Shown: one piece after another, positions 1,019-64,000 of the stretch
Position numbering within the stretch: the stretch's first letter is position 1
Layout: every line of letters begins with the position of its first letter
The notes under the pieces: generated by a model
Database searches by the model: none
Seen by the model: only the letters and a program-made list of their open reading frames with translations
Told to the model about the DNA's origin: nothing
NCBI RefSeq assembly: GCF_020520425.1
Contig: NC_079492.1
Span: forward strand, 140,310,361 to 140,374,360
DNA from: Spinacia oleracea
Lineage: Eukaryota; Streptophyta; Magnoliopsida; Caryophyllales; Amaranthaceae
Length of the DNA stretch: 64,000 nt
Direction: 5' to 3'
Translations under genes and position numbers: made by a program

Positions 1019-1294
1019 CTAGTTTTTAGGCCCGGACGATGCCCCGGGTTACTACATTAATAAAATTTACGTTTACTTATATATAATTTTTTGTAATGAT
1101 AACATGAAGAATGTAATAGCTTAGTGGTAAAAGCTTTATTCTTTAAACTCAAGTTCATGAGTTCAAACCTTACACAAACCATATTTGCCATTTTGTTTTT
1201 ATGTAGATGAATATTACATGGAGAGAACGACCCATAAGTAGAGCGCCACGTGTCACGTATACTTTCTTATAAACGTCTTTTAATATATAGTATA
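1019..1294 (-). mobile_element. Small non-autonomous Helitron, main part (3' end to near 5' end), interrupted
   Basis: Read on the minus strand the 3' terminus is CTAG (1022-1019) followed by T, preceded by a GC-rich hairpin (gcccggac..gtccgggc type, about 1030-1048). These are Helitron hallmarks. The other side reads, on the minus strand, TATACTATATATTAAAAG, the usual start of plant Helitrons after an initial TC. That TC lies 10 kb away at 11171-11172, because the LTR retrotransposon inserted 7 bp inside the end. Without the insertion the element is about 278 bp and lies between A and T as Helitrons do. It carries tRNA-like A and B boxes on the plus strand. Confidence 0.75.
1117..1169 (+). 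promoter_or_regulatory. tRNA-like A box and B box (Pol III type) inside the Helitron
   Basis: TAGCTTAGTGG (1117-1127) fits the A-box consensus and GTTCAAACC (1161-1169) fits the B-box consensus GWTCRANNC, with normal tRNA-like spacing. There is no acceptor-stem pairing, so this is not a tRNA gene. It looks like a tRNA-derived or SINE-derived segment carried by the Helitron. A related element at 39189-39681 has equivalent boxes. Confidence 0.45.
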
Positions 1295-1689
1295 TGTTAT
1301 TCGGATGGAACACTACAAGAGGGGGGGTGAATTGTAGTATGGAACTTTCTAGCCAATTTTGCGGAATTATAAAGAAACTTTAAGCAAGTAGAGAAACAAT
1401 GCAAGAGAGATTTTACGAGGAAACTTTCTACGCCCAACTAGAAAGAAAACCTCGACCCACTAGGGATTTCAACTTAAACTCTTTTCACTATAGGGCAACA
1501 ACTCAGTTACAAACCTATAAGGAACTCGGGCATTACTTGAGTTCCTCTACGAACTCAAGTTCCCAATAGTTGTTCCTCAAACAACTACGCTCTCACTGAC
1601 TTCCCTAGAAGTCTCTCTTGACTCTTTTGCTTCACTCAAAGCCTCTCTGCTTCTTTCTCATAGACTTCACTCAAAGCCTACCCAAATAC

Positions 1690-1830
1690 AACCGGAACTC
1701 GCTCAAGTTCCTACCCCATACACATCAGGAACTCACTCAAGTTCCTGCCCAAAACTTATACAAGAATTCACTCAAACCCTTGACAAATTACCCATTACAA
1801 GAGCTCACTCAACCCTTGAACAACTCTTAA
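1690..1830 (+). repeat. Degenerate ~35-bp tandem repeat inside the LTR
   Basis: Four successive units share a core like gGAACTCRCTCAAGTTCCT, starting near 1693, 1727, 1764 and 1800. Later units have drifted (gaattcactcaaaccct, gagctcactcaaccctt). The same array lies in the right LTR at about 9466-9606. The units bracket a GGAACT..AGTTCC inverted pair, so each could fold into a small hairpin. Confidence 0.6.
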
Positions 1831-1884
1831 AATATTGACATTTGATAATTGATTAAACTCTAATATGTAGAGAGTGAATAACTG

Positions 1885-1930
1885 TAAAGGAACTCGGAAC
1901 TGACAGGAACTCGGAACTGCAGGAACTGAC
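1885..1930 (+). repeat. Clustered GGAACT repeats in the LTR
   Basis: Five GGAACT or GGAACTG copies fall within about 40 bp, in the form aggaactcggaactgac repeated twice plus a fifth copy. It is the densest point of the element-wide GGAAC motif and is copied exactly in the right LTR near 9662-9707. Confidence 0.7.
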
Positions 1931-3389
1931 TAAAAAACGTGGAACAAATATATCTTCTTTAATTACCTTCCACGTAAACCAGACTCTGTGGAATGACCGA
2001 GAAGTCAGACACCCTTGAATGAATGAGAAAGCTCTCCTTTATAGAGGAAGAAACCTCAACCACTTTCTCCATAATCTTCTCCACTAACAACCACTAAGCC
2101 CTTCAATTTAGGCATGATCCCATGACTTTAGTCAGTAGAGAAAATCATGGAGTTAGGGCTAAGCATAATCAGGTTTTCCATGATCTCCTATTATTTCTCC
2201 ACTAATGTAGTTTTTCCAAAACAACGTAAAACAATGATTTTAATTTTCTAAAACCAAACCTTTTAAATCTGATTTAAAAAAAAAATAATAAATAAATAAA
2301 TTTTATTAAAATAAAATAACTAACAATCAGATTTTATTTTACAAAAAGATTAATTATTTTTTATTTATTAAAAATAAAATTTTAAACACATTAAACTACA
2401 AAAGATATTCAAAACAAATCCTAGAATGAATAGGACATTATTAAAAACGAATTTTAAATAATAAATAAATAAATATATGATATAAAAATCAGAATCCTAA
2501 TTAAAATAAGATTTTATAAAAATTATCTTTTATTTTAAAAACATAAATAAATAGAGTTTTACTAGGAGATAAATACTCAAAGTCAAAGGTAAATCCCTAA
2601 CAACTAGGAGTGTTAAAAGCCACGATATTGACACTTAAAATTACCTTAAAACTAGGAGTATTCTAGGAAGATAAACTGACGTTATTTCTCATAAGTTCCG
2701 ACAAGTTCCTTTTGGCACCGTGTTCCTCAATTATTCAAGTTTCTACATACTTACATGAATCATAGAAAATAAACTCTTATTTTCTTCTTCATGCTTCATG
2801 ATGCTCCAACTCAAGAGCCTCATGTTGATAGTTCCGCCTCTGGAACTTCTCCATGCTTGTTCCTACTCAGGAACTTTATACTCGTTGTTCCTCGTAGGAT
2901 CTGCTGAGGAACTGATCTGTTTGTGTTCCTTTGAAGAACTTTGTTGCAGCTTGGATACTTGATTTATTGACTTGAACTCTTCATGTTTGTTTCTTCATCA
3001 AACCTATATTTGTTTCGTATACATATTGGAACTCAAACATAGGTTAGTCGTTTGCTAGTTGTCATCAAAACCATAAAGTCAGTGATGACAACCAATACAA
3101 GCAAGATGAAGAAAACTAAACTAATAAACAAGTATGCAGTAGTTAAGGACACAAACTCTAAGTCTAATGGTATACTTATATAATTAGACTTCTCTTCTGA
3201 AGTTCCCTTCACTTCTTGAGTTCCTTTCAGGAACTTCACTTCTTCTTGTATATATCTTCATAATCTTCCAACTAAATGATCTGTATTAACCGTCATTACT
3301 TGTTCATGCACATCTAAACAATACACACATTAGTTAGATAATCATCATTTGTTCATAATCATCAAAACACTATATTACTCAACAATATT

Positions 3390-3562
3390 CCCCCTTTTTG
3401 ATGATGACAAACAAATGATGCTTATCGCAAATTAAACATTAAAGATGTACATTAATTCCCCCTTAATAATACAGACTGGAAACTATTGAACAAGTCATGC
3501 ATAAGAGGATTTAGACTTGACTATATTAGACAATAAGCATTATACATAATCTTCCCCCTTTT
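3390..3562 (-). other. Multiple polypurine tracts upstream of the 3' LTR
   Basis: On the minus strand, AAAAAGGGGGA (3399-3389) directly precedes the LTR and is preceded by GTTTGTCATCATC, a phrase usual before the PPT of plant Copia elements. Further G5 purine runs lie at about 3456-3464 and 3553-3564, the last also next to GACAA. Plus-strand DNA priming during reverse transcription starts at such tracts, and multiple PPTs are a described trait of Sireviruses. Confidence 0.7.
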
Positions 3563-3564
3563 GT

Positions 3565-4276
3565 CATTATCGAAAAGGACAATTTTACACATATTTGCTT
3601 TAGGTAAATCATATATACATATTGCTATATGCCACAATTACCACCATAAAGGTTAAACACTTGTTAGTCCTAAAAGTCTCAAGATGCTCAATTTTCAAAC
3701 TTAGGATGCATATGCTACACGAATTTCCAATTCACAATCCAAAGATCCAACTTTAAAATTACTGAAGGAACTTGACAAATAATAAATTAAAGTCAAGCAT
3801 AGATCAAATTTGAAAGTCAAAAATGGATTAAGAGAGTATGATATTGTAATATCGGGCTCAAAGAAGTATGAAAGAAATTTATGGAGCAATTTGAATAGAG
3901 GGAACTTTGAAATAGATAGTGTGCTCTTTAGTTAGGTTTTCAAAGTGAGGTTCTCAACAATCATTAGAGTTTATCACTTTACCTCACAATCTTGAAATTT
4001 CTTCTAAACATAACCATGATATGTACCAATCAAGTTCACTTCTCTTCAACCACCAACTTTCCTTGAGAAACACACTGATAAAAGGAACTTGAACATATTT
4101 CATCAAGTTCTTTCAATTTTTGCTTATGTTCCCCTTTCAACTGATTCCATGAGTAAACGTCTTCAGAATCATATGTCATCTAGGAAATAATAAAGATTTG
4201 ATCACCCTTGTTTATTTTTATTTTTTTATTTTTTTTTTTATTTTTTCTTTTCATTTTTTTTTTTTTTCATCATACA

Positions 4277-4307
<31 letters not shown>

Positions 4308-7300
4308 CAAGGGTGTCATTACACGTTGTGGCACTTTCCTAGAGTTTTTAAGTACAACAGTAAAGAGAAAATATATTCATACATACTTGAGTTCCACCAC
4401 CAAATATGAATCATTTACATTTGTTCCTTCCTTATTCCCCCAGAGTTCCTTACCATTCCTCTCTTCATTTTGGAGCTTGTAAGTGTAGCTCCATCTAATG
4501 ATTTCCCTCGAAATATCAATTGATAAAGTATAATAAACTTGCTTCTCACTTCTTCCACAAACTTCCCCCTCAAAATGTATCCATCCATTTATAACTCTTT
4601 ATGTATCATCAAACCATACAAATCGATGAATATTAACTTAGAGCTCGTGGGAAGTAGTATATTTGAAGTGTCGGGATATGAGTGGAATGATAATTTTGGA
4701 AATAAGGATCTTCGAAGTTATGAAATGCTAATGATAGGAATAAAGAATACAACGTAGAGATACAATACTGGATTGTAGAGTATGATTGTACTTAGCACGG
4801 ACACACAACCCAAAGGTTGTAGAATAATGCTAATGGCTCGGCACAATAGAACACTCTTTGCGAATGTAGTATAATGCTCAACCCAATCACGAACACACAA
4901 ACCAGTCTTGTGGAAAGATGTTGTTCTTCAAATACATATGGTGTGGATAAGTGGAAGTTGGTTAAAATATAGGTTTGTTCCCTCTGACAATATTAAGCAA
5001 GATAAAGAAATATTTTTATGGGAATCTACTTGTCTAGTTCCATCAATGTTTCTTCCATTGTTTCTTTGGCAACTTAGGATTTTCTTGTTTGATAGCATCC
5101 ATATAGTTCTATTATGAGACATCTAATACTCTTTGGGCAAGTGAGTATGCCTTTTACAGCACAAAATATAAGTGTGACACATTTACTTTAAGCATACATA
5201 ATTGCCTTATCTAAATATGTGTAGGAGTTCCAAATCAACAAAACTCATGGAAAAGACTATGTTATGCTCATGCCATTGCTTCATTAAGTATTGATCCTTT
5301 AAACAGTCCATGAATAGATGAAATCATAAGGAAAGCATAATCACATAATGCATTTCAAGACGTGTACAATTAAATTAATAAGTAAACAATATAACAAAAA
5401 AAATGTACCTTATATAATTTTTCACCATGTGTATGATTACTTTGAGGTGCTGGACTAATTTTGATGAATTTATGTTCGAGTTCCTTGAGTGCTAGTTCCA
5501 TCATCTTGATGCCCTCACATCTTATGGAAACATTCATGTGTAATCGAATATTGTCAATCATTCTTCAGAAGTTCCTTGACATGCTTTTGTCATTTGATCA
5601 TCTCAAATATCACTCTCTATTTAATTTTTATAGAAATTAAGAGAGTGGTTGTTGTGTTCTTTCATCATGTTCATATAAACACTTATGATAATGAAACCTT
5701 ATAAAACAATTCGTTAGGTTCAACATTTATGTATATATATCACTAATAAATCAGTTTCTCTTGAAAACAAAATATGTTAATTTTAAAATCAGTTTTCAAG
5801 AAGGGACTTGACATTGTTCTTTATAAGAAAAAAAAGAAGTCATCTTCTGTTTGGAACAACCTATGTCCCATATGTGCAACAACATAGGATTATATATAAT
5901 TACCTTATAAACAAGCTACTGGAGAAATAGTCTCCTAAAAATCAATACCTTTCTGACTGGTTGTTCCTTTCAAGAACCAACCTTCTCTGAGTTCCTTTGT
6001 CGATGTCATTGAAAAATTGATTGAATGAATGTTGTAGTGCACACAGGAACTCGATAAATGAATCTGGCAATTTCTCTACTACTAGAGCAGTCGTGGAACT
6101 TGTTGCATGATATTGATTGATCGAGTTGATCTTCAGCTTCATGAACTGGAACTTGAACCTTAGTTTGAAGTTCCTCGACATGAACTTATGTAGCTGGCTA
6201 CTGTTGCTTTTAATAGTGACATATTTTATCATTAGAAACTCGATTAGTTCTACATGAACTTGCGAGTTCAATATTGAAATAAACTTTAACCTGTTGCTGG
6301 GAATAGTCATGTTAGTTTCAATCACAAGTAATATATTCACTTATTTCAACGCACATTTTTATATTTGTTGTAAACTCTGGATCATCTTCAATAACCCCTA
6401 GAAATATCAAATTATTGTTAGGAACCAAATTGTGATCCACAAAGTATGTGTTCTCTCTTTGATTCCCTTCAACTATGACATTTATTACTGATGATGTAAT
6501 TTATTTTTAAAATTACCAGAGAAAACATAATTTTGGAAACTCTAAACAAATGTGCATTAATTACTCGACAATAAAAATTCACAATGGAACAGGAACTTGA
6601 CTTACCAACTTTTCATTTGGAACCAATCTTACCTTAACTGTCAAAAGTTATAAGTTTCCAATGTAGGTAGCAACCAAACGATAATAGTGAATTTTCTTTC
6701 ATAGAACAATCATTGTCGAGATATAACGAGTTGTTCCCCCTTAGTTGTAGCCACCTCGTTTTTCATGTTACAAGTAAGCTAGAACATGTTCCTATGGTCT
6801 TCATGACCATTCTCCATCTTGAGTTATTTTAATATGAGTAATCTGGGAAAAAATAACACTCAAGTGTAGTACTTTTGTGCAAAGTTATGATTAGCGGGTT
6901 AGTCTAAAGTAAATATATATATAATCAGACATAATAACAAAATATGATGTTCCTGAAAAAGTTACTTCACGAAAGAAACATGAAACATATATTTTGTTCC
7001 ATGGAACTTAGGTTAACAAGAACCAAGAACTTGTACATGAAAAACTTTGACACCAAAAATTTGCTATCAAATAGTTTATGCACCATTTATCAAGTTACTG
7101 TAACCTTGAGTTCGCTGATTGTTTCACCAGAACTTAGGAAGAGTTCCTTTGATCAATGAAACTTATTATTATGCATTTTATACATATTAAATTCCAAAAC
7201 AAAACCTATAACACAAATAAGGTTAGTTTGCACAATAATTTAAGAGAAACAGGTTTATATAAAAAAATTCAACATTAATTAACACAAGTAAAATGAGGGA

Positions 7301-9055
7301 ACAACCTTACTAGCATTTCACATGATTGAGTTCCTTTGAGATGTTCAAAGTGACTTCCAATTATATAGTGCATGTGAGTTGATTCGTTGATATGACCCAT
7401 CATATTTGGAAGGAACTTACATGCTGGTGGAACTGGAACTAGTTTACATCTGAAGTTCCAAGTTCCGAGCCTGAGTTCCTCTTCACTATTCCAACGAATC
7501 TAATGGATTTCCAACTCATTTTTCCTTGGTGTAATTCTGATGTTGTTCCTTTACTTCATACACACACTCAATCATGAGTTATAAACCTGTAAAAATCATT
7601 TCTCTTCTACTACTTTCCAAAATCATGCATTAGTAATAAATATATTTAGGTAGCATAATTTAGAAGATTAAAGTATACAAAAATTGTATACTAACAGACC
7701 TGTAAACAATTCATGGTCTTGGGAACCTGACTTAATTTCAGTTCCTTTCTTTTTAGTAGTAGCATCTTAGAAAATGATTATTTTAAACTGCTAGATCTAA
7801 GATTTAACATGCATACATATAATAAATATTCAATATACTCATAATACATGGAAAAATCGTTCTTTGGACAATAAATGATATAACATTAAATTATGCAACC
7901 CAAAGAATAAAGTTCTCTTTGCAGGGAAACCAAGTTCCAAGAGTGGCTATATGCATTGTTCCTTTGTCTTGTTCCTTGAACCATTCAAATAATGCATGAA
8001 TGCAAAATCAGTTTTAGAATCTGAAATTTGTCTCACAAAAACATGTTTGAGACAATCCAAAATCGATTAAACAAATTTTAAAATATATTTGAACAATTTT
8101 CATAAAACGTTGTTAGGAACTTGATTTAAATAAATAGCGTATGCATATAAAGATCTCAAAAATTTAATGTTTACCTTAACTGTATCATTAAGGATCTTTT
8201 CGTTGCAGCCTTTATCTGTTCCTTGGAATGGTGCTTAAATGAGTTCCTTTATTCGAAAGTTCCTCTTCGGATTTTGATCCTTGTTCCGATGTGGGGAGCT
8301 GATGTAATGTATTTTTATAATGTCGCACCTTCGTGAGTTCCTAAGTATAACTCGTGGGTCAACAATGATCCAGCGAGTTCCTCAATGTAGAACTTAAATT
8401 CACAGGAACTCTGACATATTAATGTGCACCTTTGTTTGTTCCTGTACCAATTTCTTTGTCGAGGGAACCCAACAGATTTGGGTCCCTTCTTGTTAGTAGT
8501 AACTGTTAAGAAAATAATCAACACAACAACTACTACCAAGATACAATATGCCTTCATATAAATGATATTCAATATATTCATGAAGCATATAAAATAATAG
8601 TTCTTAGGCAGAGAAAAAATAAGTAGGATATTTTGTTGCCTAAAAAATAAAAACTCCGAGTTCCACATATATGCATTTTTCAAAATACGTTTCCTTGACA
8701 TAATTTTAATGTACTGAAGTTTGAAAAAAAAAAAATTGAAGAATCATTTATTAAATATAGATTTTAGATTTTTCAAATTTAATTTTAAATCAAAACAAAA
8801 CAGAAGTTCCATTAGAAACAATGCAAGGAACACGCAATAAATTAATGTATGCACACAAAGAAGGTCTAAAGAAATAGATATTTACCTTAGAAGATAGCCT
8901 GTTACACTTTGGCTGACTTTTATTCAACAATAAAAGTCAGATCTGCCTTGTTCCTTTGAATGGGTAGGATCGAGTTCCTTTCATCAAGTTTCTTGTAATT
9001 GTTCCTCCTTCCAGGAACTTAACTCAGCAGGGTTGCCTGCTTATCAGCGAGTTCC
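3565..9055 (-). other. Non-coding interior of the retrotransposon
   Basis: It has no domain-bearing frame. It contains about 60 GGAAC/GTTCC motifs (roughly 40 in the GGAAC sense on the minus strand), a T/A-homopolymer block at 4208-4308, and several minus-strand GTAA/GTAC splice-donor-like sites following the motif-rich segments (near 5405, 5903, 6602, 8174, 8883). Some ORFs of 60-132 codons exist but resemble nothing known to me. Confidence 0.6.
7690..8700 (-). repeat. Diverged ~730-bp repeat units in the retrotransposon interior
   Basis: The segment 7690-7935 matches 8437-8690 in order: a GGGAACC block, 'tagtagtarc', 'atgc..catataa..atattcaatata.tcat', then a GTTCC block and 'atatgcat'. 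The following parts, 8105-8240 and 8825-8965, also match, including a GTTTACCTTA / ATTTACCTTA phrase. Identity is only around two thirds by eye, so the duplication is much older than the insertion. Confidence 0.5.
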
Positions 9056-9068
9056 GGCTCTGATACCA
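9056..9068 (-). other. Primer-binding site (initiator Met-tRNA type)
   Basis: On the minus strand this reads TGGTATCAGAGCC, 2 bp inside the right LTR. It is the standard tRNA-iMet complement used by many plant LTR retrotransposons and fixes the element's orientation as minus. Confidence 0.92.
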
Positions 9069-9070
9069 AT

Positions 9071-11165
9071 TGTTATTCGGATGGAACACTACAAGAGGGG
9101 GGGTGAATTGTAGTATGGAACTTTCTAGCCAATTTTGCGGAATTATAAAGAAACTTTAAGCAAGTAGAGAAACAATGCAAGAGAGATTTTACGAGGAAAC
9201 TTTCTACGCCCAACTAGAAAGAAAACCTCGACCCACTAGGGATTTCAACTTAAACTCTTTTCACTATAGGGCAACAACTCAGTTACAAACCTATAAGGAA
9301 CTCGGGCATTACTTGAGTTCCTCTACGAACTCAAGTTCCCAATAGTTGTTCCTCAAACAACTACGCTCTCACTGACTTCCCTAGAAGTCTCTCTTGACTC
9401 TTTTGCTTCACTCAAAGCCTCTCTGCTTCTTTCTCATAGACTTCACTCAAAGCCTACCCAAATACAACCGGAACTCGCTCAAGTTCCTACCCCATACACA
9501 TCAGGAACTCACTCAAGTTCCTGCCCAAAACTTATACAAGAATTCACTCAAACCCTTGACAAATTACCCATTACAAGAGCTCACTCAACCCTTGAACAAC
9601 TCTTAAAATATTGACATTTGATAATTGATTAAACTCTAATATGTAGAGAGTGAATAACTGTAAAGGAACTCGGAACTGACAGGAACTCGGAACTGCAGGA
9701 ACTGACTAAAAAACGTGGAACAAATATATCTTCTTTAATTACCTTCCACGTAAACCAGACTCTGTGGAATGACCGAGAAGTCAGACACCCTTGAATGAAT
9801 GAGAAAGCTCTCCTTTATAGAGGAAGAAACCTCAACCACTTTCTCCATAATCTTCTCCACTAACAACCACTAAGCCTTTCAATTTAGGCATGATCCCATG
9901 ACTTTAGTCAGTAGAGAAAATCATGGAGTTAGGGCTAAGCATAATCAGGTTTTCCATGATCTCCTATTATTTCTCCACTAATGTAGTTTTTCCAAAACAA
10001 CGTAAAACAATGATTTTAATTTTCTAAAACCAAACCTTTTAAATCTGATTTTAAAAAAAAAAAAATAAATAAATAAATTTTATTAAAATAAAATAACTAA
10101 CAATCAGATTTTATTTTACAAAAAGATTAATTATTTTTTATTTATTAAAAATAAAATTTTAAACACATTAAACTACAAAAGATATTCAAAACAAATCCTA
10201 GAATGAATAGGACATTATTAAAAACGAATTTTAAATAATAAATAAATAAATATATGATATAAAAATCAGAATCCTAATTAAAATAAGATTTTATAAAAAT
10301 TATCTTTTATTTTAAAAACATAAATAAATAGAGTTTTACTAGGAGATAAATACTCAAAGTCAAAGGTAAATCCCTAACAACTAGGAGTGTTAAAAGCCAC
10401 GATATTGACACTTAAAATTACCTTAAAACTAGGAGTATTCTAGGAAGATAAACTGACGTTATTTCTCATAAGTTCCGACAAGTTCCTTTTGGCACCGTGT
10501 TCCTCAATTATTCAAGTTTCTACATACTTACATGAATCATAGAAAATAATTAAACTCTTATTTTCTTCTTCATGCTTCATGATGCTCCAACTCAAGAGCC
10601 TCATGTTGATAGTTCCGCCTCTGGAACTTCTCCATGCTTGTTCCTACTCAGGAACTTTATACTCGTTGTTCCTCGTAGGATCTGCTGAGGAACTGATCTG
10701 TTTGTGTTCCTTTGAAGAACTTTGTTGCAGCTTGGATACTTGATTTATTGACTTGAACTCTTCATGTTTGTTTCTTCATCAAACCTATATTTGTTTCGTA
10801 TACATATTGGAACTCAAACATAGGTTAGTCGTTTGCTAGTTGTCATCAAAACCATAAAGTCAGTGATGACAACCAATACAAGCAAGATGAAGAAAACTAA
10901 ACTAATAAACAAGTATGCAGTAGTTAAGGACACAAACTCTAAGTCTAATGGTATACTTATATAATTAGACTTCTCTTCTGAAGTTCCCTTCACTTCTTGA
11001 GTTCCTTTCAGGAACTTCACTTCTTCTTGTATATATCTTCATAATCTTCCAACTAAATGATCTGTATTAACCGTCATTACTTGTTCATGCACATCTAAAC
11101 AATACACACATTAGTTAGATAATCATCATTTGTTCATAATCATCAAAACACTATATTACTCAACA
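9071..11165 (-). repeat. Right LTR (5' LTR in element orientation)
   Basis: It is 2095 bp and near-identical to 1295-3384. On the minus strand it begins TGTTGAGT and ends CGAATAACA. As the 5' LTR it should carry the promoter and transcription start. I could not place a TATA box with confidence. Confidence 0.92.
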
Positions 11166-11172
11166 GTATAGA
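11166..11172 (-). mobile_element. Target-site duplication plus last 2 bp (5' TC) of the interrupted Helitron
   Basis: GTATA (11166-11170) repeats 1290-1294. The next two bases, GA, read TC on the minus strand and are preceded there by A. Joining them to 1290-1294 restores a canonical Helitron start TCTATACTATATATT. This shows the retrotransposon is younger than the Helitron. Confidence 0.8.
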
Positions 11173-15652: not shown

Positions 15653-16751
15653 TCAGTAGAATAATGTAAAAGGGCCATGGTAAAAACTATGAATACTCCC
15701 ATCTGCTAGATTGTAAACGCCTATATCATTCCCCTTGTTACCGAACTTGTAACTATACCAATACTCAATAGATATCATATAATCATCCGTGAAATAGATA
15801 GAGTTAGGTTTACAACCATGATCGGTAGATATCTCTACAGAAAAGGATGAGTTACTGCCTACAAAAATGGCGACATCATATAAGCAGTCTAGTTTGTTAG
15901 CCTCCCTTTTATCGACATCTATCTCAAATATTTCGAACGATTTGGTGAAAAAGGCATTGTCCACCAATTCTCTCACCCTACGAACAAGCAACAACCGATC
16001 TGCTGATTCAACCAAGTAGTAGTTTAGTACAGAATTCTTGTCATATGATGTCCGCTTCAAGTCTCGAGTTTTTAATTTGATTATTAGTTCTTGGGGATGA
16101 CCTGATTTGTCGACATCAAAACGCCAAATCTTACCAGAACAGGCAGTCTCCATAACACCATAGAATACTCCACGATAACATATGATATCAAAGCATACAG
16201 AATTAGATTCCCCACAACCTTTATGCTCCAAGAGTGGTTTCCATTCATCGTTGTTGTTTCTCCAGAAAGAGATGATTGCATGACGGCAACACAGGTTCAT
16301 ATAAGGTTCGATTAAGATGAGGGCAATTGTGAAATCGTTAGTGGTAGACGGGTTCGCTGACAATATGAATTTCTGAAAACACCATCCATCGAATTCATAG
16401 TAACGTAAAGAATCCAACATATTGCTCCAATAGCAACCATCCATGTGATGATAACAACCTTTTCTCGTGAGGGTTCGGCTGCGGAAGACTAACACAACGG
16501 ACTTGCTGGTTATAGGGGCTATAAAACCGACGTTGGTTCGAGGTGTCGTCTTTCTCAGGAAGCATAAGCCATGGCACCCTTGAAAGCGTTGATGATTGAG
16601 TTTGAGTATTGTTGGCTTGAAACTTGGCCTGCTTGGCTGCTGATCTCCAACGAGAACAGACATGCCCGAATATTTCAAAGTCTTCTAAGAATTCGACGTG
16701 TTCGGCGATTTTACTGGCAACATCATCGTGTAGATTGCCCCAATCGGCCAT
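15653..16751 (-). pseudogene. F-box-DUF295 gene, copy 1, disrupted
   Basis: The start MADWGNLHDDV (ATG at 16751-16749) and an F-box-like segment (LEDFEIFGHVCSRWRSA) are in one frame down to about 16400. The rest, with the DUF295 signature NSIYFTDDY and DIGVYNLADGSIHSFYHG, continues in another frame. Compared with the intact copy at 20131-21312, a segment of about 40 codons around the phrase LINPLTGAVIKLPQV is missing and the reading frame is lost there. The last ~15 codons are also cut by a TAG, because the homologous ending FTWFQVPTS lies downstream in another frame. F-box proteins normally recruit substrates to SCF ubiquitin ligases. This copy probably makes no full-length protein. A sequencing error is the alternative, but the missing segment argues for real decay. 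Confidence 0.8.
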
Positions 16752-20130: not shown

Positions 20131-21312
20131 TCATGAGGTTGGAACCTCAAACCATGTAAACGGTGCGTATTTACTACAATGTGAAGGACCATTGTAACAA
20201 CGATCAATAGTCCCATCTGCTAGATTGTAAACACCCATGTCCTTCCCCATGATGTCCAACTTTATTTTATACCAACAATTAGTACCTTTAATCATATAAT
20301 CATCCGTAAAATAGATGGAGTTAGGTTTACAACCATGATCAATAGATACCTCTGTAGAAAAGGATGAATGAGTGCCTATAAAAATGGCGACATCATATAA
20401 GCAGTCAACTTTCTTAAACTCCCTTTTATCGACATCTATCTCGAATACTTGAAACGATTTCGTCTCTGCCAATGTTCTGACCCTACAAACAAGCAACAAC
20501 CGATCTCCTGATTCAACCAAGTAGTAGTTCACTACATATTTATAATAATCAAATGATTTCGGTATCAAGTCTCGATGAGACTCTATTTGGATCACTAACT
20601 CTTGCGGATGACCTGAATTGTCGACATTCAAACGCCAAATCTGTATAGAAGGCGCAGTTACAGTAACAGCATAGAATACTCCACGATAACAGGTCATATC
20701 AAAACTAATAAAATCCACATCAAGTGGTTTCCATTCTTCGTTGTGGTTTCTCCAGAAACAGATGGTTGAATAACTTAAATCAAAGTTCATACGAGTTACG
20801 TTTATGATCAGACCGATTGTGAAATCGGTAGTGGTAGACGGGTTTGCTGACAATATGAATTTCTCAAAGTGCTTTATTTGACATATGGGGTAATGTATAC
20901 GATTCACCTGAGGAAGTTTTATTACGGCACCGGTCAAGGGATTTATGAGACACAGATTAAAATAACCTTTTAAATTCATGTAAGTGACCGACATCAACCA
21001 TCCGCGTGATGATAACAACCTTTTATTGTGATGGTTCGGCTGCGGGAGACTCACATGGCGAACTTGTTTGTTATAGAAACTATAAAAACGACGTTGGTTC
21101 GAGGTTTCGTCTTTCTCGGGAAGCATAAGCCATGGCATTCTAGAAAGTGTTGATGATTGAGTTTGAGTATTTTTGGCATGAAACTTGGCCTCATTTACGG
21201 CTGATCTCCAACAAGAGCAGACATGGCCGAATACCTCAAAGTCTTCTAATAATTTCATGTGTTTGGAAATTTTAGTGACGAGATCTTTTGGTATGTTACC
21301 CCAATCTGCCAT
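20131..21312 (-). CDS. F-box-DUF295 protein (SKIP23-like), copy 2, intact
   Basis: A single uninterrupted frame of 393 codons starts MADWGNIPKDLV. An F-box-like N-terminus spans about residues 4-45 (KDLVTKISKHMKLLEDFEVF, then GHVCSCWRSA), followed by a conserved PWLMLPEK segment. The C-terminal half has the DUF295 (KIB1-4 beta-propeller) pattern: LINPLTGAVIKLP near 125, FYAVT near 215, HGCKPNSIYFTDDY near 330 and DMGVYNLADGTI near 360. In this plant family the F-box binds SKP1 in SCF E3 ligases while the propeller region is thought to bind targets; the target here is unknown. It is the only copy of the three without a frameshift, which suggests selection on it. The gene has no intron, as is common in the family. 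Its promoter and 3' flank are shared with the broken copies. Confidence 0.82.
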   Translation of the reverse strand: MADWGNIPKDLVTKISKHMKLLEDFEVFGHVCSCWRSAVNEAKFHAKNTQTQSSTLSRMPWLMLPEKDETSNQRRFYSFYNKQVRHVSLPQPNHHNKRLLSSRGWLMSVTYMNLKGYFNLCLINPLTGAVIKLPQVNRIHYPICQIKHFEKFILSANPSTTTDFTIGLIINVTRMNFDLSYSTICFWRNHNEEWKPLDVDFISFDMTCYRGVFYAVTVTAPSIQIWRLNVDNSGHPQELVIQIESHRDLIPKSFDYYKYVVNYYLVESGDRLLLVCRVRTLAETKSFQVFEIDVDKREFKKVDCLYDVAIFIGTHSSFSTEVSIDHGCKPNSIYFTDDYMIKGTNCWYKIKLDIMGKDMGVYNLADGTIDRCYNGPSHCSKYAPFTWFEVPTS

Positions 21313-21490
21313 GTTTGATTATGCTACAAACAAATTACCTAGATCGGGATGGAAAATTAAAATATCATTATTTTCAATATAAAGAGATCCTATAGTCGGC
21401 TGATGCTTATAAAAAGTTCGAGGAGCCCTAAAGTTAGCTAGACAAAAACAACAACAGGCCCATTATCATAATGATCCTTATCGCTATGCA
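21313..21490 (-). promoter_or_regulatory. Upstream region of the intact F-box gene
   Basis: Homologous to 16752-16960 upstream of copy 1. TTTTTATAAG on the minus strand near 21407-21416 is a possible TATA element about 100 bp before the start codon. Copy 3 has no equivalent similarity beyond its start, so its promoter seems lost or replaced. Confidence 0.45.
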
Positions 21491-22844: not shown

Positions 22845-24007
22845 TCATGAGTTTGGAAGCTGAAACCATGTAAACGGTGCGTATTTAGTAGAAGAATGTG
22901 AAGGAGCATTGTAACAACGATGAATACTCCCATCTGCTAGATTGTAAACCCCATGTCCTTCCCCTTCCCGTGGAGATCCAACTTGAACTTGGGTGATATA
23001 TTACGTCCACTTCTAACGATCCTAGAATCATCCGTAAAATAGATGGAATTAGGTTTACAACCATGATGAATAGATACCTGTGCAGAAAAGGATGAATTAC
23101 TGCCTATGAAAATGGCAACATCATTGAATAAGCAGTCTAATTTCTTGGGCTTTCTGTTGATATCGACATCTATCTCAAATAGATCAAATACATGGAATGA
23201 TGGTCGTCTCTTCCAATTTGAACACCCTACAAATAAGCAACAACCTATCTCCTGATTCAACCAAGTAGTACTTGTATTCATCTTTAAAATCATAAATTGA
23301 TCTCCGTATCAAGTCTCGACGAAGAAACTCTATTTGGATCACTGGCTCTCGTGAATTGTCGACATCAAAACGCCAAATCTGTATAGAACCATCAGTCGCA
23401 GTAACACCATAGAATACTCCACGATAAAAGGTCATATCATCAAGGCATAAAAAACAAAATTTGAGTGGTTTCCATCCACCGTTGTGGAGAAGGTTTCTCC
23501 AGAAACAGATGATTGAAGAACCGATAATAGGAATGCGATCGCGATCGCTTAAGATGAGGGCGATTGTGAAATCGGTAGTGGTAGACGGGTTCGCCGACAA
23601 TATGAATTTCTTAAAGTAGCTTGTTTTGACGATCCAGGTTTATTACGGCACCGGTCAAGGGATTTATGAGTTCCACGGAGAGCAACCAACCATGTGATGA
23701 TAACAGCCTTAAGCTTTTCTTGTGCGGGAGATTAACATGCCGAACTTGCTGGTTATAGAAGCTATAAAAACGACACTAGTTCGAGGTGTCGTCGTCGTCG
23801 TCTTTCTCAGGAAGCATAAGCCATGGAACCCTAGAAAGTGTTGTTGTTGATGATAATTGAGTATTGTTGCCATCAAACTTTAGCCTGTTTTACGGCTGAT
23901 CTCCAACCAGAGCAGACATGGCCGAATACCTCAAAGTCTTCTAAGAATTTTATATGTTCGGAAATTTTAGTGACGAGCTCATTAGGTAAGTTACCCCAAT
24001 CTGCCAT
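22845..24007 (-). pseudogene. F-box-DUF295 gene, copy 3, multiply disrupted
   Basis: The start MADWGNLPNELV (ATG at 24007-24005) and F-box (LEDFEVFGHVC, WRSAVKQAK) are present, but the frame breaks soon after WRSA. Later pieces occupy different frames: about 23600-23184 (LSANPSTTTDF to LLLICRVFKLEE) and 23230-22937 (LFEIDVDI to YFTDDSR and KGKDMGF). The final FTWFQLPNS-stop is at about 22870-22845. At least three frame changes relative to the intact copy make it a pseudogene. Confidence 0.85.
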
Positions 24008-39915: not shown

Positions 39916-42900
39916 TTATAGCAATCCATCCGCCGCATAAACGAAACTAGGACATATATTTTTGATGTCGTTGATTTTGGCATTCAACTCTTCATCCCTT
40001 AGGTTTTTCACTGTAATTTGCTCATCCAACTTTGCAATCTCAAATTCGAGTTTAACCTGCTCAATTGTTTTCAACTCTAAAGCTTTAGAAAGCTCTTCTG
40101 CCTTTACTTTATTCTCCATAAGTTGTTCCTCGAGTTTCATGAGCTCATCTCTTGATGCCATGGCTTTCTGAATTTCATGGAGTCTCTGATGCAACCACTT
40201 GACATCAAAGTTGAGACCCTCTACATCCTTGAGAATGGAGAAGAGTTCCTTCAGTTCATCAGATTTCATATCAGCAACAGGAGTATCACGGAGCTTCTGT
40301 ACAACGTTACAGATACTCTCTAAAAGACGTGTCTTGATTAGTTCTGATTGAAATGTACATGATTTAGCGATATCCCCGTGCTTGTTCACTATAGCTTGCA
40401 TGATATTAGACCAGCCCCTCAGCATACCAGTTGTGCAGCTCGTTTCTTTTAGACGGTCATTGTCATTTTCATTTTTGTTTGAAGAACCAAATCCATGGTT
40501 ATTTTCAGGGGAAAGAGTCGGCTGTTCAAGGGTTGGACATTCATTTTCACCTTCTGAAGCAATGGACTCGTCTTGACCTTCTTCATTATCAAGTTGTGTT
40601 TCCATTGGTTGCACTTCATTTAAAACGATTTCTGGAGATCCAAGCCCATGACCATTTACACGAGTACCAGGCATTTCATCTGCAAGATTTTGACAAGGTG
40701 GGAAAATTAACAATTTGTGAATATTGTGATACTGAAGTAAAAACAAATTATGATACATCTTTTTATTCAAGTAAATATCTTATTGAATTTGTTAAAAATT
40801 TTTAGATGACTAAAATAAGTAAGGATTTTCCTAGGGGCCTAAAGAATAAGCGTTTACTCTTGAGCCGCCCCTGCAACAACATAATTGATTTGATGATGCT
40901 AAATGGGATAAACAATATGAGGTTTTTGGTGTAACCAAAGAGAGTTAACATACCTTTTACTGAGGTTCTACTGATGAAGTCATTCATTAGAGTATCACGG
41001 TTCGAAAGACAGCCAGAATTTTCATCTGAAGAGTCAATTTCAATGATTTCAGTAGGTGAACACCTTCTCGATGTTTCAACTTCAGATACCGTCTTTATGC
41101 AAGAACCTCCCATGAAAGTGTTGACATCCAACTTGATGATTTTAGCGCGATCCTGGCAGTTCAGCTGCTGCTGCTTTTGTGACAATGCTGCGGGAAAAGA
41201 GGCAACTACACTTATCAATACTCTACACTCCTGGTAAAGTAAAAATCTCAACTATTGAGCTCAATAATTTTGTCATTTATGAGTTCCCTCACCCCGTGTG
41301 ATAGGTCTAGATGACCTTCCACTTGTTTGGAGAGACACGTCTAATTGAGCTGCAAAATTACGCAATAGCTTATTACATTGCCTCATTTTTACAATCTTGT
41401 GCCAAACGACTAGTTAATTAAAAAAATGTGAATACTAGGACATAAAAAGAAAAGACATACAGAGTACTAGGCATTAAACAAGTCAACTATGGTTCAACAA
41501 ATCACCCAGAGAAGAGGAAAAAAAAAAGGTTCATTTAACACAGTCAGATTCAAAAGAAGATGATTTTCTATGAGGAAATGAGCAAACAACATGGGAAGAG
41601 TGGAAGACCAGCCTGGGGTTGGCATTACACAGGGGAAAGGAGGATGTAAAATTTTCAAGACTTTCAACCAAAATTACTAGTTTCTAATCTGCATAATGTG
41701 GTTTTAGTGAATGTCAAGACTCGAAAAGGAACTAGATTTAGATAAACATAGCTCAGTTTAAAAGATGTGGTCCTTCTATACATCCCTAGCTATCTCGAAT
41801 TATCTTCTTCACCTAATTTTTACAAAGATTTCCATGCGTTTATTATATCCAAAATTTCCAACTATAATCCAAACTTGAGCATTAGACTCTTTCAACTTTG
41901 TCAGAATATACAGTTCAATCTAAAAGGTCCTTGTGAGGACCCTGAGTGTTACCTCTCATTTTTTGGTGGGATTTACCACTACCGCGTGAGCAGCTCTTAC
42001 CATGATTGATCGATAGCATGTCAGACGACTTCATGGAATCACCTTGATCTATGGATTGACCCTCGGTTCTGCAGAATTCTAAGCAGAAAGCCAGCAACAT
42101 TCACAGTAAGTGATCAAGTTTCACAATTTACCAATCATAAGGAAAAACAACAATATTTCAGACACTAACACAAGGTTTAAAACAAAACAATTCTATCCCA
42201 ATCATGCAACTATCAGTTCATACAAAACTGATCTTCAAAGCTCAAACTCAACATAAACTTGAAGTACAAGTTGATAAAGATTGTTACCCCTCAATTTCAG
42301 CCTTTTGTGGGTGCTAATTGGGGTGTTTTCGGTCAATAGCTTCTTCGGCCACTCCATGTTTCGATGGTATTTGAGCCGGTACATGCCTTAAGTAGGATTT
42401 CAAATAGCAACAAAGGCAACAACAGTTAAATTACACTTTGTCCAACCAATTGGAAATTTAACAAACCGGATAAGCAAAATGATAAGCTACTAATGAGAAT
42501 TTCATACAAACTTCACAATCAAATTTAGGGCACACCAATTAACATGCAAAATCAAGAAAGTCGTTGTGTATCACATTATTTCTTCACAAATTACTAAAAT
42601 TGAGCTAATTTTCAAACTCAAAGAAAACAGTCGAAACACTAACCATTTGGGGTTTAAATTTATACAAAATTAATGGCATTTAAACAACCATCTCAACTCT
42701 CAAGTCAAAACCTTCCCAAAAATCCGTATCGTAAAATAATTATATAGAACTCCAAAAAATTAAAATAAAACCACAAAAACCAAATGTAACCAAGAAATTC
42801 TAAAAGATTTCACAAATTCACTGCAAAAGTAGAATATTAACAACAAAAACAACCCTCTAAATTCAGAAGGGTAAGGGTAGCTTACCGTCAATTTCCGGCA

Positions 42901-44202: not shown

Positions 44203-64000
<19,798 letters not shown>

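Follow-up and report, generated by a model that had tools for sequence, protein, structure and literature searches.

The stretch of DNA analysed here (the window) comprises 64,000 nucleotides of Spinacia oleracea contig NC_079492.1 (assembly GCF_020520425.1, positions 140,310,361 to 140,374,360). It contains a long terminal repeat (LTR) retrotransposon at 1295-11165 that is saturated with the short word GGAAC or its complement GTTCC. A first-pass annotation had pointed to this saturation and had set the outer ends of the element at 1295 and 11165, which hold; its strand has to be corrected, as the sense direction of the element is that of the minus strand. In this study, we characterized this single element copy within the one window. 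We found that the GGAAC excess is real, and that a dispersed, putatively selected site is the best class of explanation for it. The features of the element, in window coordinates, are:

1295..11165, minus strand: whole non-coding LTR retrotransposon, probably a Sirevirus-type large retrotransposon derivative (LARD), with LTR pair, target-site duplication, primer-binding site and polypurine tract (PPT)
11166..11170, no strand: target-site duplication GTATA, right
9071..11165, minus strand: 5' LTR in element sense, 2095 bp, 30 sites
10472..11015, minus strand: U3 motif cluster, 14 sites (counterpart in the 3' LTR at 2695-3234)
9722..10471, minus strand: motif-free, mostly AT-rich stretch including the TATA box
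9812..9822, minus strand: likely TATA box CTCTATAAAGG of the 5' LTR (second copy at 2036-2046)
9083..9721, minus strand: motif cluster of 16 sites on the 3' side of the TATA box (counterpart at 1307-1945)
9097..9103, minus strand: C7 run close to where the LTR ends on its 3' side, resembling the Sirevirus integrase signal (second copy at 1321-1327)
9057..9070, minus strand: ATTGG spacer and TATCAGAGC primer-binding site, fitting the Sirevirus consensus as given in the consulted sections of PMC2829016
3385..9070, minus strand: interior, 62 sites (40 GGAAC and 22 GTTCC in the sense direction)
8314..9033, minus strand: ancient tandem module A (aligned span)
7555..8359, minus strand: ancient tandem module B (span as aligned, with imprecise ends and a slight overlap with A)
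6734..6741, minus strand: extra PPT octamer AGGGGGAA, 3.4 kb upstream of the 3' LTR and overlapping a GGAAC site (AGGGGGAAC, 6733-6741)
4563..4570, minus strand: extra PPT octamer AGGGGGAA
3552..3559, minus strand: extra PPT octamer AGGGGGAA
3456..3463, minus strand: extra PPT octamer AGGGGGAA
3388..3395, minus strand: terminal PPT AGGGGGAA, its start 11 bp away from the 3' LTR
3353..3407, minus strand: inverted repeat spanning the junction of PPT and 3' LTR, arms 3396-3407 and 3353-3367
1295..3384, minus strand: 3' LTR in element sense, 2090 bp, 30 sites
1290..1294, no strand: target-site duplication GTATA, left

The element has the makings of a LARD, that is, LTRs, target-site duplication, primer-binding site, PPT and a long non-coding interior. 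Saturation with one short word is not known to belong to the definition of LARDs. The ten sense-strand interior open reading frames (ORFs) of at least 60 residues, which span 60-142 amino acids and to which the Pfam scan of the element was confined, gave no match above the cut-off (best E 0.09). Both LTRs are equal at 2088 of 2095 alignment columns, and this near-identity, together with the GTATA duplication, indicates that the element is young. None of the seven differing columns falls inside a motif copy, a number too small for a test. As for the family, the consulted sections of Bousios et al. (2010; PMC2829016) describe a set of non-coding features as Sirevirus hallmarks, and five of them are present here. 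The 5' LTR ends in CA, and its junction with the primer-binding site reads AACA-ATTGG-TATCAGAGC. The octamer AGGGGGAA occurs five times in the sense and never in the antisense direction, and an inverted self-match (E 8e-6) crosses the junction of PPT and 3' LTR. In addition, the likely TATA box, picked by position and form out of five loose TATA matches, lies in mid-LTR (LTR 1344-1354 of 2095), and a C7 run is found at LTR 2063-2069 of 2095, corresponding by eye to the polyC signal described in that source. Altogether, we would class the element as a young insertion of a non-autonomous LARD of Sirevirus type, a putative assignment made from non-coding hallmarks.

In 9.88 kb (1287-11165), we counted 122 copies of GGAAC or GTTCC against 12.8 expected under a first-order Markov model fitted to this stretch itself. 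Each LTR carries 30 of these copies and the interior 62, which agrees well with the previous counts by eye of about 30, 60 and 120. When the LTR is counted once, 92 sites remain against 9.7 expected, or against 7.6 if the motif is masked from the background. The excess is therefore 9.5- to 12-fold, close to the tenfold estimated earlier. In the flank (11200-64000), the same word lies below background, with 54 copies against 72.8 expected. GGAAC/GTTCC is by far the top 5-mer of the element (z 26.4), in a ranking that excludes words with fewer than three different letters or an expectation below 1. The 71 control stretches gave much lower values: the best 5-mer reached z 3.2-7.3 in six flank stretches of equal length, and a median of 5.7 and a maximum of 10.9 in 65 contig stretches, mostly non-plant. 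Once the motif is masked, the leading 5-mers of the element are the G5 runs of the PPTs (z 6.0) and ATATA.

The form of the site is sharper than the core suggests. Among the 92 sites, the base 3' of GGAAC is T in 61, A in 27, C in 4 and never G, whereas the remaining AAC words would predict about 32, 36, 17 and 7 (p 1e-9). The first-pass annotation had noted a frequent extension to GGAACT or GTTCCT. T is indeed the commonest next base, but GGAACW describes the sites better, because the next base is nearly always T or A; a frequent longer form is AGGAACT. This marked skew after the core counts in favour of a binding site. Beyond about -1 to +7, the flanks of 91 of the 92 sites hold little information. 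As candidate general cause, heat-shock elements were rejected: three-unit forms are absent, and GAAnnTTC and TTCnnGAA occur 4 and 7 times against flank-scaled expectations of 2.2 and 3.2. The sites are clustered: successive sites stand 20 bp apart or closer in 31 cases, where 19.4 are expected (p 0.0015). In LTR coordinates, 14 sites lie at 151-694 and 16 from 1445 onward, separated by about 750 bp with none; so long a motif-free gap arises in 0.8% of uniform placements. Thus, the earlier statement that the motif crosses LTR and interior alike holds in that both carry sites, but not as an even spread. A part of the LTR at 2321-2570 of the window (counterpart about 10098-10347), upstream of the TATA box, is very AT-rich (14% GC) and motif-free.

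The sites use both strands, as had been noted before. In element sense, 54 read GGAAC and 38 GTTCC (p 0.12), and the LTR alone is balanced (14:16). Neighbouring sites less than 40 bp apart (n = 50) are in the same orientation in 28 cases and in opposite orientation in 22, as in a random arrangement. Inverted pairs separated by 15 nt or less number 5 and 8 in the two arrangements, against a permuted mean of 8.6 each, and hence reveal no preference for palindromes. Shuffling the orientations of the sites did not weaken the predicted folding of the element, as 27 of 100 shuffles were at least as stable (z -0.75). Moreover, the sense sites of the interior are spread evenly over the three frames (14/13/13). 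The two-strand use, the lack of a hairpin advantage or of palindromes, and the absence of a sense frame all argue against RNA packaging, splicing enhancers, RNA stems and coding repeats. These data favour a word that is recognised on double-stranded DNA rather than one that serves in RNA packaging, in splicing or as coding sequence.

Based on these observations, our leading proposal, to which we give a probability of about 0.45, is that the array consists of dispersed binding sites for one sequence-specific protein that binds double-stranded DNA and acts on the transcription or the silencing of the element. Each GGAACW copy would be a putative site read in either orientation, and the density of sites would single the element out for a factor acting in trans, encoded by the host or an autonomous partner, which would keep the element transcribed or unsilenced. 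Selection on master copies may have built the array. The dispersed selected site suggested by the first-pass annotation thus remains the best class of explanation, still a putative one, and without its RNA-level versions, which the use of both strands and the lack of a hairpin preference disfavour. Should a protein indeed bind the sites, a gene-less retrotransposon would be able to attract a factor acting in trans all along its length by means of a single short word. This would provide a handle on the role of the repeated motifs of Sireviruses, and on whether retrotransposons use sequence-specific anti-silencing like VANDAL DNA transposons. Since the motif is short and exact, screening by pull-down or DNA affinity purification sequencing (DAP-seq) would be simple.

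Two other accounts are unlikely in our view. The first is a mutational history without function, in which a motif-rich seed multiplied throughout a non-coding element under little constraint, by local tandem duplication, microinsertion and gene conversion. Local tandems that contain the motif are present in the LTR, the sites are clustered, and variants with one mismatch are in excess. In addition, modules A and B, of about 720-800 bp each and situated in the 5' part of the interior, go back to one ancient tandem duplication; they share 72% identity over 664 aligned columns (z 16 against shuffles; self-blastn E 1e-9). The best z of any other pair of modules was only 3.6, and blastn found no related fragments elsewhere in the window at E 1e-3. 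A TAAGGTAAA box, donor-splice-like by eye, occurs in both modules. However, modules A and B align best where the motif is scarce, sites are carried by LTR and interior alike, and the flanks of 91 of the 92 sites share little beyond the stretch around the core. Repeated duplication of a seed, also raised by the first-pass annotation, is therefore not the general source of the sites because their flanks are unrelated, although the LTR does hold local tandems. The duplication also allows the fate of individual sites to be compared, with the motif bases masked before alignment. Module A has 13 sites, 12 of them within the aligned span, and for three of these 12 the motif recurs at the corresponding position of B. 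Random 5-mers are kept at 5.7% in exact register, and of 300 random sets 2.3% retain three or more; GC-rich 5-mers are kept at 1.1%, with no set above one. The sites are thus kept better than other 5-mers, which speaks for our leading proposal; this retention suggests constraint, with modest support, alongside much turnover.

The second of these accounts, equally unlikely, holds that the sites are degenerate or half-site forms of the repeated motif (RM) boxes of Sireviruses, with a promoter-related role, which arose in the LTR and spread later. The consulted sections of PMC2829016 report that Sireviruses carry element-specific repeated motifs of unknown function in their non-coding DNA, a published precedent that the first-pass annotation had left unconsidered. 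According to these sections, RM boxes are palindromic, have CGG-CCG cores in 12 of 13 cases (Tnd-1 differs), form CpG islands and number 8-32 copies; they start 200-400 bp after the junction, run over 300-500 bp, and are also known from linker DNA. The Sirevirus anatomy of our element fits this proposal, and its U3 cluster at LTR 151-694 lies near the position so reported; the occurrence of RM boxes in linker DNA also speaks for it. Nevertheless, 16 of the 30 LTR sites lie 3' of the TATA box, and the interior contains 62 more. The sites show no preference for dyads, their core is GGAAC instead of CGG-CCG, and the observed to expected ratio of CpG is 0.40-0.52 in four LTR segments, unlike in a CpG island.

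An RNA-level signal, whether for packaging or Gag binding, as a splicing enhancer or through GGAAC-GUUCC stems in genomic RNA, appears improbable to us. The sense bias of the interior (40:22) and a few inverted pairs at close range, among them GTTCC-N6-GGAAC, which occurs twice in U3, speak for it, but the even orientation in the LTR, the overall ratio, the number of close inverted pairs and the folding of the shuffled elements described above do not. A remnant of a repetitive coding region with short peptide repeats is very improbable, given the even sense frames, the lack of a Pfam match in 10 of 10 sense ORFs and the similar density of the motif in the LTRs, and despite a weak frame bias of the antisense interior sites.

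Several of our results weigh against the proposal of dispersed sites on double-stranded DNA. The strand bias of the interior is mild but present (p 0.03), and the antisense interior sites are distributed 2/6/14 over the frames (p 0.006, one of four such looks). For nine of the 12 sites in module A, module B offers no counterpart, and the partner of A site 116 changes between masked and unmasked alignments. With a slack of 3, moreover, random 5-mers are kept at 8.6%, and 8% of the sets equal the three of the motif. Variants with one mismatch number 165 against 132.6 expected with the motif masked, a ratio of 1.24 that just exceeds the 95th percentile of other 5-mers (1.22). Such a halo fits decay, turnover or tolerated variants, and part of the array may be decaying. 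The motif arrays of VANDAL21 have one orientation in the consulted sections of PMC5735166, and those of our element have both. Finally, the only relative found, a protein in ENA (P0001), reads another copy of the LTR (E 4.9e-22, 62% identity in BLASTP). In a frameshift alignment, 19 of 22 motif codons and 127 of 139 other codons are unchanged, so that this protein does not separate the motif from other codons, and its residue differs at the site of window 9297.

Searches beyond this protein yielded little. With P0001 as query, a protein search returned only P0001 itself, and a third LTR ORF had no match. Scans of viral contigs for relatives of the element gave no matches, and none was confirmed with P0001. 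A 14-mer hit at least 120 stretches in viral contigs and a 17-mer seven; the genome contig search returned two records, both of bacterial metagenome-assembled genomes. Among the loci compared for motif density (L001-L122, with the five loci L123-L127 from the 17-mer search standing outside), only L019 exceeds four copies per kb. This viral contig has 40 GGAAC against 7 GTTCC, and 35 of the 40 lie in two adjoining repeat-rich ORFs (2481-6023). It shows that a coding cause can produce an excess of the same word, on one strand, unlike in our element. By eye, the ORFs of L019 look phage-like.

Elsewhere in the window, three adjoining minus-strand ORFs with a KIB1-4 beta-propeller domain lie at 15653-16684, 20131-21318 and 23184-23639, the middle one also with a sub-threshold F-box match. 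Gene pieces matching the Pfam families PEARLI-4 and PLU-1-like are found on the minus strand at 39916-40779 and 50976-51350.

We recognised no report of GGAAC saturation in any retrotransposon among the matches listed from CC-licensed (Creative Commons) literature. In its architecture, the element resembles a LARD, with long LTRs, primer-binding site, PPT, target-site duplication and a long interior in which we found no gag-pol. Its PPTs resemble those of Sireviruses as described in the consulted sections of PMC2829016, where the usual octamer ends in G and an octamer ending in A is reported for ToRTL1 and Tnd-1. The five identical sense octamers also end in A, and three of them lie within 0.2 kb of the 3' LTR. 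Unlike in that description, two octamers lie 1.2 and 3.4 kb upstream, and the terminal tract starts 11 instead of 10 bp before the LTR. As in the RM boxes reported there, the motif is element-specific, of high copy number, located in non-coding parts and clustered in the upper half of the LTR; unlike them, the word is non-palindromic, has 5-6 bases and occurs in 92 non-redundant copies over LTR and interior.

The strongest precedent for a dense motif as the target of a protein in a plant mobile element is VANC21. In the consulted sections of Hosaka et al. (2017; PMC5735166) and PMC10398659, VANC21 binds a nine-base motif, which attains high density in copies of VANDAL21 alone, and the protein brings about a loss of methylation throughout the element. 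The targets of VANC21 and VANC6 have 8-9 bases, often form tandem repeats and share one orientation, and VANDALs are Mu-like DNA transposons (PMC5735166). Like those targets, the motif described here is short and dense in the non-coding parts of a plant mobile element, and it is scarce elsewhere, as judged from the window flank. Unlike them, it belongs to an LTR retrotransposon, and its sites are mostly dispersed and in both orientations (54:38). A more specific version of our proposal, in which a protein of an autonomous partner, or a captured host protein, would bind GGAACW and lift silencing, with the gene-less element hijacking this function, would be an LTR-retrotransposon counterpart of VANC; we consider this version distinctly unlikely. 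Under it, the sites would outnumber those of the elements described in the sections of the literature compared. Altogether, the array belongs neither to the RM boxes nor to the VANC targets, as each definition fails in at least one of the features tested, and it shares with both a dense, short motif in the non-coding DNA of a plant mobile element.

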